The translations under genes and the position numbers were made by a program. A stretch of DNA of 6,149 nt from Chloroflexota bacterium (lineage in GTDB: Bacteria > Chloroflexota > Anaerolineae > DTPP01): assembly GCA_012514615.1 (NCBI GenBank), contig JAAYZY010000158.1, positions 1-6,149 on the forward strand. The letters run 5' to 3'. This document shows positions 1,107 to 5,963 of the stretch, piece after piece. Each line of letters begins with the position of its first letter. Within the stretch, counting starts at the first letter, position 1. The notes under the pieces are model-generated. The model made no database searches and was not told the origin of the DNA. It worked only from the letters and a program-made list of their open reading frames with translations.

Positions 1107-1736
1107 ATGGACGTCCAACTGATCGGCGTTACCCACGTTGTAGGGGGCCAGGGTGGTCCCCAAGAGCTGTTGGAGCATGCGGGGCGGGTCTGCTACCGCA
1201 GCGCGGCTCGGGGCAAGGCCGAACGGTTCCTCCGCAGCCGCATCGCCGAGGGCCACGAATCGATCATCGAGCACGCCAGCCTGACCTTTGAGATCAGCGG
1301 CATCTCTCGCGCCTGCAGTCACCAACTGGTGCGCCATCGGCTGGCCAGCTACAGCCAAGAATCGCAGCGCTATGTGGAGATGTCCGACGCCCAGTGGGTG
1401 GTACCGCCCAGAGTAGCCGCCGACTCGGCCGCCATGGTCATCTGGGAAGCGGCCATCGCCGACGTGCAGCGGGCCTACCGCGATCTGCGCGACCTGGGCA
1501 TCCCCAGGGAAGACGCCCGCTACCTGCTGCCCAATGCCACGCAGACGCGCCTGGTGGTGACCATGAACTTCCGCGAACTGCGCCACGTCTTTCGGCTGCG
1601 CATCAGCCGCCAGGCGCAGTGGGAGATCCGTGACCTGGCCCTGGCCATGCTGCGTCTGGCCTACGATGTCGCGCCGGGCGTCTTCAGCGACATCTGGGAA
1701 GACCTCAACGCCCAGTATCCGGAGTGGTTCGCCTAA
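1107..1736 (+). CDS. thyX: Flavin-dependent thymidylate synthase ThyX
   Basis: This 209-residue protein methylates dUMP to dTMP using methylenetetrahydrofolate, FAD and NADPH; ThyX enzymes act as cytoplasmic homotetramers and replace ThyA. The ThyX signature RHR-x7-S is complete: RHR at residues 76-78 and Ser86 within RHRLASYSQESQRY, which binds FAD and dUMP. The conserved upstream block (EGHESIIEHASLTFEISGISR, 48-68) and the C-terminal block NFRELRHVFRLR...AQWEIRDLA are also present, the latter carrying the usual substrate-contacting Arg. Length is typical for the family. The ATG at 1107 has a GAAGGGAAG ribosome binding site at 1092-1100. The gene is monocistronic by layout: divergent from the permease and convergent with the glutaredoxin gene, whose stop codon is only 4 bp away, leaving no room for an intrinsic terminator between them. 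Confidence 0.97.
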   Translation: MDVQLIGVTHVVGGQGGPQELLEHAGRVCYRSAARGKAERFLRSRIAEGHESIIEHASLTFEISGISRACSHQLVRHRLASYSQESQRYVEMSDAQWVVPPRVAADSAAMVIWEAAIADVQRAYRDLRDLGIPREDARYLLPNATQTRLVVTMNFRELRHVFRLRISRQAQWEIRDLALAMLRLAYDVAPGVFSDIWEDLNAQYPEWFA

Positions 1737-2897: not shown

Positions 2898-2926
2898 TTG
2901 ACTAGAACAGACGTTCGTGCTATAAT
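2898..2926 (+). promoter_or_regulatory. lexA promoter, near-perfect sigma-70 consensus
   Basis: TTGACT at 2898-2903 and TATAAT at 2921-2926 are separated by exactly 17 bp. The spacer is almost filled by the LexA box at 2905-2916. The leader to lexA is about 70 nt. Confidence 0.93.
2905..2916. promoter_or_regulatory. LexA box (SOS operator) in the lexA promoter
   Basis: GAACAGACGTTC fits the GAAC-N4-GTTC form of LexA operator known from Bacillus and other Gram-positive bacteria and also reported for a member of the Chloroflexota. It lies between the -35 and -10 boxes, so bound LexA would exclude RNA polymerase, the usual arrangement for lexA autoregulation. Confidence 0.9.
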
Positions 2927-3002: not shown

Positions 3003-3638
3003 ATGCAGCTTTCGGAACGACAGCAGGCCATACTGGACTACATCCGCGCCTACTGGCGGGGGAACCAGCGCCCCCCCACCATCCGCGAGATTCAGGAGCA
3101 CCTGGGCATCAGCTCCACCTCGGTGGTCAACTACAACCTGAACCGCCTGGCTGATGAGGGGCTGATTGTCCGCGCCCGGGAGGTATCGCGGGGCATCCGC
3201 CTGGTGGATGACTCGGGCATGCGCTTGGCGCAAGACATCCTGGTGCGGGTACCCATCTCCGGCTACATCCGCGCCGGCGCGCCGGTGGACGTGCCGGACG
3301 CCTCGGTGGCCCCAGACGAGTACCTGGAGCTGACGCGGGACCTGGTGAAGGGCGAGGGAGACGTCTTCGCCCTGCGCGTCCGTGGAGACTCCATGATCGA
3401 CGCCCTGGTGAACGACGGAGACATCGTCTTGATGCAGCAGGTGCCTCGGGTGAACAACGGCGAGATGGTGGCTGCCTGGCTCAAGAACGAGCAGGAAACC
3501 ACTCTGAAGAAGTTCTACCTGGAAGGCAATCGCGTCCGCCTGCAGCCGGCCAACCCCACCATGGAGCCGATCTACACCACGCCGGCCAACGTGCAGATTC
3601 AAGGCAAGGTCATCGTAGTCATCCGACAGGTGGCCTAG
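3003..3638 (+). CDS. lexA: SOS response repressor and self-cleaving protease LexA
   Basis: The 211-residue protein represses DNA-damage genes until RecA filaments trigger its self-cleavage. Residues 2-66 form the winged-helix DNA-binding domain (LSERQQAILDYI, then TIREIQEHLGISSTSVVNYNLNRLADEGLI at about 26-55). The C-terminal S24 peptidase domain has the cleavage bond Ala91-Gly92 in YIRAGAP, the nucleophile Ser130 in RGDSM and the general base Lys169 in TLKKFY, spaced as in E. coli LexA apart from two extra residues. Length is normal. The start is taken at ATG 3003, 6 bases after AAGGAGG; the GTG immediately before it (3000) is the in-frame alternative but is only 3 bases from that site. Transcription is from the promoter at 2898-2926 with an internal LexA box, implying autoregulation. 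Two hairpins follow the gene. Confidence 0.98.
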   Translation: MQLSERQQAILDYIRAYWRGNQRPPTIREIQEHLGISSTSVVNYNLNRLADEGLIVRAREVSRGIRLVDDSGMRLAQDILVRVPISGYIRAGAPVDVPDASVAPDEYLELTRDLVKGEGDVFALRVRGDSMIDALVNDGDIVLMQQVPRVNNGEMVAAWLKNEQETTLKKFYLEGNRVRLQPANPTMEPIYTTPANVQIQGKVIVVIRQVA

Positions 3639-3672
3639 CACCCCGTCCGTCAGCCCCTTGGGCAGCAGCCAA

Positions 3673-3699
3673 CTGGGCCGGCTGTAGCAGCCGGCCCAG
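3673..3699. terminator. Strong hairpin after lexA (12-bp perfect stem, no U-tract)
   Basis: CTGGGCCGGCTG and its exact complement CAGCCGGCCCAG flank a 3-nt loop, TAG. It starts 34 bp after the lexA stop codon. No run of T follows on either strand, so it is only a likely terminator or mRNA 3'-end stabiliser. Confidence 0.6.
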
Positions 3700-3700
3700 G

Positions 3701-3736
3701 CCCCCTGTTCAGCCAACGACGCCCAGGGGGGTTTCT
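3701..3736 (+). terminator. Second terminator-like hairpin after lexA
   Basis: CCCCCTG (3701-3707) can pair with CAGGGGG (3724-3730) across a 16-nt loop, followed by GTTTCT, a short T-rich run. It directly follows the stronger hairpin and ends 13 bp before the LexA box of the next operon. Together the two structures should separate lexA transcription from that of the downstream cassette. Confidence 0.4.
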
Positions 3737-3749
3737 GGCCCAAGGAGTA

Positions 3750-3761
3750 GAACAAATGTTC
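3750..3761. promoter_or_regulatory. LexA box (SOS operator) upstream of the mini-FtsK cassette
   Basis: GAACAAATGTTC fits the same GAAC-N4-GTTC pattern as the lexA operator, and the dyad extends to 14 bp (AGAACA-AA-TGTTCT, 3749-3762) with 6-bp perfect arms, a better palindrome than the one at lexA. It lies 50 bp before the preferred start of the downstream gene. No consensus promoter is obvious; TAGAAC at 3748-3753 could be a weak -10 overlapping the box, but no matching -35 was found. Confidence 0.85.
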
Positions 3762-3811
3762 TTGTGCGCCCAAGAGGCCTCTCCCTTCCAGCGCAGAGTG
3801 GGGGAAACGAG

Positions 3812-4951
3812 ATGAAGCGAGCCCGACTGGAGATGCAGGCCAACCGCATCGAGGCGGTATTGGCCAGCCACAAGATCCCGGCCCAGGTGTGCGGGGGGCG
3901 CGTGAGCCCGCGCTACGTGCGGTTCCACTTGGCCACCGCCGCTGGCGTGCGCCTGGCGCGCATCGCCAACCTCTCTGAAGAGATCGCCCTGGCCCTGGAT
4001 GCCCGCACGTGCCGCGTTCGGCGCGAGAACGGCACCCTGGCGGTGGAAGTGCCCCTGGAGACCGAACGTACCGTGGCCTTCGCCAACGTGCTGCGCAAGG
4101 TCCAGCGCATCCCGCCGTGCACCGCCCTGCTGGGCGTGGATGAAGGCGGGCACCCCCTGCTCATCCGCCTGCCCAGCCCAGAGGTGGCCCACATCCTCAT
4201 CGCCGGCACCACAGGCTGCGGCAAGACGATGCTGATGCAGGCCATGATCCTCTCGTTGGCCCTGGCCAACCGCCGCAGCGCCCTGCAGATGGCCTTGATC
4301 GACCCCAAGATGCGAGGCTTCGGTGCGTTGGCCGGTGTGCCGCACCTCCTCAGCGGGGTGATCCATGCGCCCGAAGAGGCCGCCGCCCTGCTAGAGCGGT
4401 TGGTGGCGGAGATGATCCGACGGGACCACGAGCGCCGCTCCGACCCGCGGGTGGTGGTCTTCATCGACGAGCTGGCCGACCTGGCCCAGGCGGAGAGCGG
4501 CCGTCGCTGCGCCTCCTTACTCACCCGCCTGGCGCAGCGGGGCCGGGAGGCAGGCATTCACCTGGTGGTGGGTACCCAGAAGCCCAGCAGCGAGATCTCC
4601 GGCGCCATGTTCAAGAGCAACTTCCCGGTGCGACTGGTGGGGCGGGTCACCTCGGCCGACGATGCGCGGGTAGCCGCTGGCGTGGGCGGTTCGGGGGCCG
4701 AGAAGCTGTTGGGACGGGGCGACTTCCTGGCCGTGGCCTGCGGATCGGTGGTCCACTTCCAGGCGCCCCTGTTGAGGCCCCCGGAACTGCGGCACCTGCT
4801 GGGCCACGTGCAAGCCGGCGGGCAGTGGCCGCCCCTGCCCCCAGGTGCGGGCAGCGGGGCGGCGGCTGCTGGCTTGCCCCCAAGGGCCGGCGGTCCAGGC
4901 GCACCGCCCATGAGACGACAGGCAGCGGGAGAGAGCCCATGGAGAGACTGA
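3812..4951 (+). CDS. Soluble mini-FtsK/SpoIIIE-type DNA translocase ATPase
   Basis: The 379-residue product matches the motor part of FtsK/SpoIIIE. An alpha-like region (about 8-100: NRIEAVLASHKIPAQVCGGRVSPRYVRF, ARIANLSEEIALALDA) precedes the RecA-like beta domain. That domain has Walker A GTTGCGKT (132-139), Walker B VVVFIDE (214-220), the GIHLVVGTQKPS sensor-like motif, and GAEKLLGRGDFL (295-306), all hallmarks of hexameric FtsK motors. Missing are the N-terminal four-helix membrane domain, the long linker and the C-terminal gamma winged-helix domain that reads KOPS/SRS sites; the last 50 residues are low-complexity Gly/Pro/Ala. The start is ATG 3812 with a weak GGGGG site at 3800-3804; the upstream in-frame GTG at 3764 nearly touches the LexA box and is less likely. 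The 3' end overlaps the next gene by 13 bp. LexA control is implied by the box at 3750-3761. Role unproven: chromosome clearance at division, or a plasmid or element transfer motor. Confidence 0.9.
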   Translation: MKRARLEMQANRIEAVLASHKIPAQVCGGRVSPRYVRFHLATAAGVRLARIANLSEEIALALDARTCRVRRENGTLAVEVPLETERTVAFANVLRKVQRIPPCTALLGVDEGGHPLLIRLPSPEVAHILIAGTTGCGKTMLMQAMILSLALANRRSALQMALIDPKMRGFGALAGVPHLLSGVIHAPEEAAALLERLVAEMIRRDHERRSDPRVVVFIDELADLAQAESGRRCASLLTRLAQRGREAGIHLVVGTQKPSSEISGAMFKSNFPVRLVGRVTSADDARVAAGVGGSGAEKLLGRGDFLAVACGSVVHFQAPLLRPPELRHLLGHVQAGGQWPPLPPGAGSGAAAAGLPPRAGGPGAPPMRRQAAGESPWRD

Positions 4952-5388
4952 AGCGGATGGTGGTAACGGCGCTGATCCTGTTCAGCGGGACCCTCAGCGC
5001 CCTGCTCATCAAGGAGCTGAGCGCCGATGCCTTGGCCATGCTCCTAGGCGTGGCCTGCGGCATGCTGGCCAGCTTGCCCCTGCTGGTGGCCTTGCTGTTC
5101 TGGTCCAGCCGCAGCCAGCGCAACGAACGCCGCGAGCCTGCAGCCAGGCCGCAGCACGAGACGCACCAGCCGCCGGTCATCGTCATCGCCGGCGCTGGGG
5201 CGCCTTCGGCCCCGCCGTGGGTCAATGGGCGAGCCTGGCTGCCGCCAGCGTCCCAAGCCCTCGGCTTGGGCAGCCCGTCCCTGCGCGTGCTGGGCGAGCC
5301 CATGGCGGAATCGTGGGTCGGCGACCACGGATCAGGCGGCAACGCAGAGACCGAGCGTTGGTCTTGGGAAGGAGAGGAAAGATGGTGA
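4939..5388 (+). CDS. Two-TM membrane protein with Pro-rich C-terminal tail, unknown function
   Basis: The 149-residue protein is not assigned to a named family. It has a short basic N-terminus (MERLKR), two predicted membrane helices at about 7-24 and 31-56, a positively charged boundary (SRSQRNERR, 57-65), then a roughly 85-residue tail rich in Pro, Gly and Ala containing QPPVIVIAGAGAPSAPPW and ending acidic and Trp-rich (ERWSWEGEERW). Both termini are probably cytoplasmic by the positive-inside rule. ATG 4939 is preferred because a GGGAG site stands 7 bases before it and the membrane segments begin right after; longer in-frame versions starting at 4825 only add translation of the mini-FtsK C-terminal region. 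It overlaps the mini-FtsK gene by 13 bp and the next gene by 7 bp, so translation is likely coupled. It could supply a membrane anchor to the soluble motor; this is inference. Confidence 0.75.
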   Translation: MERLKRMVVTALILFSGTLSALLIKELSADALAMLLGVACGMLASLPLLVALLFWSSRSQRNERREPAARPQHETHQPPVIVIAGAGAPSAPPWVNGRAWLPPASQALGLGSPSLRVLGEPMAESWVGDHGSGGNAETERWSWEGEERW

Positions 5389-5555
5389 CAGTCACGAACT
5401 CACAGGCGCGGGCAGAGCGAGGGCAGTCGGCGGTGTGGCTGCATCTCAGGCGAGTGTGGGCGCGGTGGCGCAGCGAAAACCCGGCGTTGGTGGATGACGC
5501 CTTGGCCCTGGGCGCGGCGTTGGTGGTGGCCGCCGTCGTGTGGATCGGGAGGTAG
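5382..5555 (+). CDS. 57-residue tail-anchored membrane protein, unknown function
   Basis: A small protein with a cytosolic-looking N-terminal half and one C-terminal membrane helix. Residues 17-31 are basic and contain three Trp (AVWLHLRRVWARWRS), resembling a membrane-surface amphipathic segment; residues 40-56 (ALALGAALVVAAVVWIG) form the helix and only one Arg follows. ATG 5382 is chosen because GGAGAGG precedes it at 5371-5377 and because it overlaps the upstream stop codon in ATGGTGA, a classic translational-coupling arrangement. The reading frame extends further upstream, but that part is out of frame with the well-supported preceding gene. No family recognised. Small single-TM proteins near lexA in other bacteria are SOS-induced division inhibitors, which gives one possible role, without sequence similarity to support it. 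Confidence 0.65.
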   Translation: MVTVTNSQARAERGQSAVWLHLRRVWARWRSENPALVDDALALGAALVVAAVVWIGR

Positions 5556-5557
5556 CT

Positions 5558-5830
5558 ATGGCAACGGGAACGCGTTTTCGGTTCGGGTTGATGTGGTTCG
5601 ACGACAGCAGCCAGACAAGCCTGGAAGAGAAGGTGGCCCGGGCGGCCCAGCGTTACCGAGACAAGTTCGGCGGTGCGCCCGACACCTGCTGCGTGAACCG
5701 CAACCTGCTGCCGGACGGTCAGGAGGAGCTCTGGGTAGGCGCGGTGCGAGTCATCCCCCTGCCCAGCATCCTGCAGCACCATTTCTGGCTGGGGGTGATG
5801 GAAGAAGCCGCGGCCCCAGCCAACCGCTAG
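5558..5830 (+). CDS. 90-residue conserved-looking protein of unknown function
   Basis: The product has no signal peptide or membrane segment. It opens with a strand-like, aromatic segment (TRFRFGLMWFDD), followed by a charged helix (SLEEKVARAAQRYRDKFG, about 21-38), a Cys pair (DTCCVNRNLL, Cys44-Cys45), and a C-terminal block VRVIPLPSILQHHFWLGV (about 64-81). The pattern resembles small orphan proteins I associate with FtsK-like cassettes of Chloroflexota, but I cannot name a family. ATG 5558 has GGGAGGT 4 bases upstream, overlapping the end of the preceding gene, whose stop codon lies 2 bp before; the GTG at 5540 has no comparable site. As the last gene of the cassette it is followed by the hairpin at 5852-5881. 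It probably works with the mini-FtsK motor; the biochemical role is unknown. Confidence 0.75.
   Translation: MATGTRFRFGLMWFDDSSQTSLEEKVARAAQRYRDKFGGAPDTCCVNRNLLPDGQEELWVGAVRVIPLPSILQHHFWLGVMEEAAAPANR

Positions 5831-5885: not shown

Positions 5886-5963
<78 letters not shown>

Follow-up and report, generated by a model that had tools for sequence, protein, structure and literature searches.

The described systems which come closest to the locus studied here are the housekeeping DNA translocases FtsK and SpoIIIE, in which an alpha–beta dsDNA motor is joined to an N-terminal membrane domain and to a gamma domain which reads KOPS. The available text of PMC4080785 places an SOS promoter (dinH) at the ftsK gene of E. 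coli. Stand-alone ImuB-C (DUF6504) proteins are encoded in SOS operons and have been proposed to act in damage sensing, as set out in the available sections of PMC3765255; the words FtsK and Chloroflexi are absent from the main text of that paper. The genes of the archaeal Ced system are damage-induced (available text of PMC11868833). Other motors which invite comparison are the TcpA/TraB conjugative ATPases and those of the Ssp/HerA anti-phage systems. The small membrane proteins of Ced are of two-TM size.

The locus lies in a stretch of 6,149 nucleotides from a Chloroflexota bacterium, all of which was analysed and which we refer to as the window. Its motor, a mini-FtsK, resembles housekeeping FtsK/SpoIIIE in the alpha–beta dsDNA motor and, with regard to E. 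coli ftsK, in an SOS-linked promoter, but it has neither the N-terminal membrane domain nor the gamma domain and is an extra gene with a separate two-TM partner. As in the stand-alone ImuB-C operons, control appears to be of the LexA type and a DUF6504-type gene is close by in 19/65 loci, although the window is without DUF6504. LexA-type control also sets it apart from the TcpA/TraB ATPases; the 6 kb of the window contain no recognisable integrase or replication gene, and a serine recombinase adjoins 7 of the 65 copies of the motor gene. With archaeal Ced, as far as the available text describes it, the locus would share a damage-induced ATPase accompanied by small membrane proteins; however, no CedA-like channel was recognised and the motor is of the FtsK rather than the HerA/VirB4 type. 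From Ssp/HerA systems it differs in that the motor region alone matches and ORF2–ORF4 match nothing. The available portions of the literature on LexA, FtsK or SOS in Chloroflexi or Anaerolineae described no such system, and those of the literature searched contained no boxed, separate mini-FtsK with a split anchor and an ORF4 family. An SOS-linked FtsK is already known from E. coli, and this arrangement appears to be undescribed.

Gene content and LexA boxes of the window

The preliminary description had reported four closely packed genes 3' of lexA, and their coordinates and joints were confirmed (Table 1). Upstream of lexA, positions 1741–2271 encode a glutaredoxin-like protein which runs on into a PDZ-like domain (read by eye). 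tRNA genes, such as the tRNA-Pro gene after the cassette, are frequent integration sites, but nothing in the window could be recognised as an integrase.

Table 1 Coordinates of features in the window
Feature	Position	Strand	Remarks
thyX-like gene	1107–1736		
lexA promoter	2898–2926	+	TTGACT −35, LexA box (2905–2916) in spacer, TATAAT −10
lexA repressor gene	3003–3638	+	211 aa; TIGR00498 176.5 bits (cut-off 110.95), PF01726, PF00717
GC-rich hairpin in the lexA/cassette interval	3673–3699	+	terminator-like, 12-bp stem, without U-tract; fold of 3640–3745, z −3.11
Cassette LexA box	3750–3761	+	GAACAAATGTTC; 50 bp 5' of ftsK ATG (3812)
mini-FtsK (ftsK)	3812–4951	+	379 aa; alpha–beta motor
ORF2	4939–5388	+	predicted two-TM hairpin protein, proline-rich tail; 13-nt overlap with ftsK
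ORF3	5382–5555	+	57 aa; C-terminal hydrophobic segment; 7-nt overlap with ORF2
ORF4	5558–5830	+	90 aa; soluble; 2-nt gap after ORF3
tRNA-Pro (CGG)	5886–5963	−	directly after the cassette

Exact GAACNNNNGTTC (GAAC-N4-GTTC) boxes occur twice in the window, once in the lexA promoter and once upstream of ftsK, compared to 0.04 expected from the shuffled window; none of 200 shuffles reached two. A box sharing the core of the lexA operator does stand 50 bp before the first gene, as previously described. It had also been called a 14-bp perfect dyad, which is true of the arms (AGAAC/GTTCT); the AAAT between them breaks the palindrome. Chance occurrence of the box was ruled out by the window shuffles together with motif controls across 63 copies of the motor gene (see below). 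A promoter scan gave no sigma-70-like match around the ftsK box, and a terminator scan called none in the lexA/cassette interval. With a strong hairpin separating lexA from the second box, the cassette may be transcribed from a promoter of its own.

A motor without membrane and gamma domains

FtsK alpha and beta (RecA-like) motor domains are both present, and the earlier label of mini-FtsK motor was right. The alpha domain starts at residue 3 and the chain contains no N-terminal multi-TM domain. PF09397, the gamma winged-helix (KOPS-reading) domain, was not among the best 25 of 30 families; in the structural model the last helix ends at residue 334 and the tail (348–379) has a pLDDT below 50. 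FtsK_gamma matches were found in all 48 genomes from the order of G197, with one to three matches each, and we infer that the mini-FtsK is an auxiliary protein which exists beside the housekeeping FtsK.

Using a threshold of E ≤ 1e−60, mini-FtsK was found in 14 of 400 evenly drawn Chloroflexota genomes (the phylum of G003) and in 34 of the 48 genomes from the order of G197, where genomes with cassette pieces at contig ends (G413, G418, G424, G425 and G427) were scored as misses. The set compared here contains 65 distinct copies, window included. In 17 of these the gene adjoins holA, which looks like a stable chromosomal setting.

Conservation of the LexA box

Box counts were made for the 63 copies with at least 150 nt of upstream sequence, leaving out L050 and L100. 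The preliminary description had proposed searching for the box upstream of related copies, and an exact box was found ≤ 320 nt upstream of ftsK in 42 of the 63, window included. When the letters GAAC were permuted into their 11 other orders, none reached more than 1/63 copies, and the best other palindromic 4 + 4 motif, out of 256, reached 4/63. Flanking positions also agree among 53 boxes, with T at −2 in 45, A at −1 in 47 and T at +12 in 48. In a simpler and weaker control, which used crude gene starts, left out lexA-like genes and had the box inside some ftsK frames, a box was found ≤ 320 nt upstream of 20/39 ftsK genes vs 17/578 other genes; 15 of these 17 genes were on the strand opposite to ftsK. 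The overall density was 83 boxes per 928,630 nt in the 65 loci, with the ftsK boxes counted in.

No exact box was found within 320 nt of the remaining 21 copies: 3 follow a lexA which has the box itself, 7 adjoin a serine recombinase and the other 11 fall in neither class. Among the copies without an exact box, L094 and L105 have a site with one mismatch. On a midpoint-rooted FtsK tree, boxed copies were present in both halves and in most main groups, and the box label required 13 changes, whereas each of 500 shuffles required more. The same motif precedes lexA itself in 19 of 29 genes from relatives, an exact box of their own being absent from the other 10; this count is based on loci for 30 of the 41 lexA matches, from which the boxed L229 was dropped. 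In five loci (L063, L064, L069, L079 and L111) lexA lies upstream of the motor on the same strand, within approximately 1.3 kb. From the conservation of this putative operator, LexA control of the cassette is well supported.

ORF2 and ORF3

Relatives of ORF2 were found in 60 of the 65 loci, which makes it the most constant partner of this group of motors; three of the five loci without it (L110, L114 and L117) have little sequence after ftsK. The earlier description of ORF2 as a two-TM protein was borne out, as exactly two TM segments with positive charges mainly at both ends were predicted in 59/60 relatives, and this would correspond to a hairpin whose two ends face the cytoplasm. An RxFxVVG-like tip was found in 52/60 relatives (TM and tip counts are both from stop-to-stop frames); the tip of ORF2 in the window, LRVLGEP by eye, is unmatched by this pattern. 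We propose that ORF2 is the membrane anchor of the motor, and direct contact between the two would be a guess.

ORF3 has a coding-like GC3 of 0.86. It had no family match in the libraries searched and no relatives by tblastn at E 1e−3 in the first 59 loci, and seems to be local to the window. A common four-gene order, as suggested by the preliminary description, is thus seen in part: the motor and ORF2 recur together in one group (60/65 loci) and an FtsK-like motor recurs with ORF4 elsewhere, but no relative of ORF3 was found in those 59 loci.

ORF4 belongs to a widespread family

ORF4 had been considered an orphan, which it is not: a profile built from 16 members found 2201 database proteins, and at E ≤ 1e−4 the family was present in 84 of the 400 phylum genomes, placing ORF4 in a family which is widespread in Chloroflexota. 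Its model has a pLDDT of 84.3 and gave no significant fold match.

We examined 52 of the 93 phylum rows for ORF4 (the 31 best, G286 and 20 weaker ones). Of 29 well-scoring loci, 27 have an FtsK-like frame 5' of ORF4 on the same strand. Most of the FtsK-like proteins encoded there are short and distantly related (E 1.7e−8 to 2.1e−81 with a model built here). Larger regions were obtained for 19 of the 27 FtsK-linked loci; G293, which is among the other 8, is also in the 65-copy set. A box was found ≤ 200 nt from the motor in 16 of these 19 regions, a count without a matched control, and was missing in L270, L271 and L283; L273 and L278 have lexA immediately upstream. None of the 19 regions was found to contain ORF2, indicating that a membrane tether is not general.

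The 20 weaker loci had a box ≤ 950 nt upstream of ORF4 in 18 cases (again without a matched control), the exceptions being L294 and L297, a DUF6504-type gene upstream in 10 and an FtsK-like frame in one. ORF4 is boxed without DUF6504 or an FtsK-like frame in L266 and L267, occurs with DUF6504 and without a box in L287, and is without a box in two viral contigs (L288 and L289). Boxed DUF6504–ORF4 pairs were observed in L291, L293, L295, L298 and L301, where loci of about 8 kb contained no FtsK-like frame. ORF4 appears to be an independent SOS gene, and, as it often occurs with no motor nearby, steering a motor may not be its main task.

A second copy of ORF4, a paralogue, was found near murD in 13 genomes from the order of G197 (including L179, L181 and L185). 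It lies between mraY and murD in 8 of the 13, which are those where mraY was found. MraY, MurD and MurF were confirmed around the paralogue in L181, and the best FtsW model scored 300.7 bits in L179, below its cut-off of 337.5. Larger regions around the murD-linked copies contained a box in L182 only, approximately 6 kb away. In an ORF4 tree, built from few columns and with many forks left open, the cassette copies except L066 formed one group (support 87/99).

DUF6504 and other SOS-linked neighbours

A DUF6504-type gene was found near the motor in 19/65 loci, and 16 of the 22 ORF4-bearing loci in the 65-copy set also have one; two representatives of these genes matched PF20114. In the window, none of ORF2–ORF4 is a DUF6504 protein. 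In L134 and L136, PF20114 was located near the end of ImuB-like frames which stand behind a box and before dnaE-like frames, and L138 has the same layout, judged from layout alone. We read the genes in these three loci as probable ImuB and DnaE2 and, from L134 and L136, DUF6504 as the putative ImuB-C.

Three loci (L092, L093 and L095) have a protein of approximately 326 aa between ORF2 and DUF6504, the L095 member of which gave weak matches to bDLD1 (bacterial death-like domain, below cut-off) and to S24 peptidases. In L126 and L127 a radical-SAM-like gene (SplB-like by eye) has an exact GAACN4GTTC box near its start and a DUF6504 match close by; these are likely to be further SOS genes.

Links to mobile elements

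A serine recombinase of about 540 aa was found beside 7 of the 65 copies (L082–L084, L086, L088, L089 and L049), and these mini-FtsK and ORF2 pairs are without an exact LexA box. Primase-, ParB- or ParM-like genes were seen nearby in those loci which were read by eye. The recombinase label required two changes on the FtsK tree, and it seems that integrative elements have acquired the pair. We do not favour a mobile element as a general explanation, with a recombinase beside 7/65 copies and holA beside 17/65. Searches by tblastn gave relatives of 31–34% identity in plasmids (E 1e−30; 2 of 2 records listed) and, in phages (E 1e−20), 31–34% identity among the matches listed, the best 10 of 64 records.

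Discussion

Our favoured reading, to which we give a probability of about one half, is that the cassette encodes a LexA-repressed, damage-induced auxiliary dsDNA translocase, a membrane-tethered "split FtsK". Sequence comparison shows the LexA-type operator and its conservation, the alpha–beta fold of the motor and the recurrence of ORF2 and ORF4 as partners, while the tether, the targeting and the site of action are what we infer. DNA damage would cause RecA-driven cleavage of LexA and so open the operon, and the soluble motor would form a hexamer on dsDNA. The proline-rich tail and conserved tip of ORF2 would act as membrane tether and linker, a role which parallels that of the linker and tether in the N-terminal half of housekeeping FtsK itself. 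ORF4, plus the DUF6504/ImuB-C protein in relatives, may guide the motor towards damaged DNA or the site of division. Pumping or stripping of dsDNA would take place close to the membrane or septum during repair, with the machine working beside the housekeeping FtsK and not replacing it. A function at the septum or membrane is plausible from the topology of ORF2 and from the ORF4 paralogue next to murD.

It is possible, though not probable, that membrane attachment is secondary and that DUF6504- or ORF4-type proteins bring the translocase to lesions or stalled forks, where it would strip proteins or remodel DNA. The DUF6504-type genes near the motor (19/65 loci), the position of this domain at the C-terminus of boxed ImuB-like proteins and its presence upstream of motor-less ORF4 in 10/20 weaker loci are all consistent with this, but the most constant partner of the motor is the membrane protein ORF2 (60/65) and the window has no DUF6504 among ORF2–ORF4. 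Alternatively, the motor and an ORF2 oligomer could form a trans-membrane dsDNA channel for damage-induced DNA exchange or export, with a logic like that of Ced or actinobacterial TraB. The motor–ORF2 pairs beside large serine recombinases (7/65), with primase-, ParB- and ParM-like genes around them as read by eye, would fit such a channel, as would the damage induction of the Ced genes (available text of PMC11868833). We consider it unlikely, as the window has no recognisable gene for a pore, pilus or relaxase, the CedB model NF041017 matched the motor at E 0.0038 (15.9 bits vs a cut-off of 700) and 17/65 copies are in the stable-looking chromosomal setting beside holA. By analogy, a LexA-controlled channel which exchanges template DNA or ejects damaged DNA would be a bacterial counterpart of Ced in its logic, and this we regard as quite unlikely.

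In other phyla, small membrane proteins encoded next to lexA (YneA, Rv2719c) inhibit division. These, together with the paralogue of ORF4 near murD (13 genomes, 8 of which have mraY on its far side), could point to an SOS division checkpoint in which ORF2, ORF3 and ORF4 delay septation, with ORF4 competing with its paralogue in the dcw cluster, while trapped DNA is rescued by the motor. However, only genomes from the order of G197 showed the paralogue linked to murD, and we hold such a checkpoint to be quite unlikely. A defence or mobile-element gene set which is switched on by SOS is very unlikely in our judgement. The motor domain does resemble SspH (PADLOC, E 1.2e−43) and HerA, three loci add a protein family with weak bDLD1 and S24 matches in one member, and serine-recombinase-linked copies exist; but the SspH match is limited to residues 1406–1761 of a 1766-position profile and ORF2–ORF4 match nothing in PADLOC or PHROGs.

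The SOS response of Chloroflexota appears to be little described, and the cassette points to an undescribed arm of the bacterial damage response, in which a motor with its own membrane protein as partner, and a family of small proteins unmatched in the libraries searched, recur behind a conserved LexA-type operator. It raises the questions of why a second FtsK would be induced after damage, and of what role is played by ORF4, which is boxed alone in some genomes and has a paralogue in the cell-wall cluster in others.
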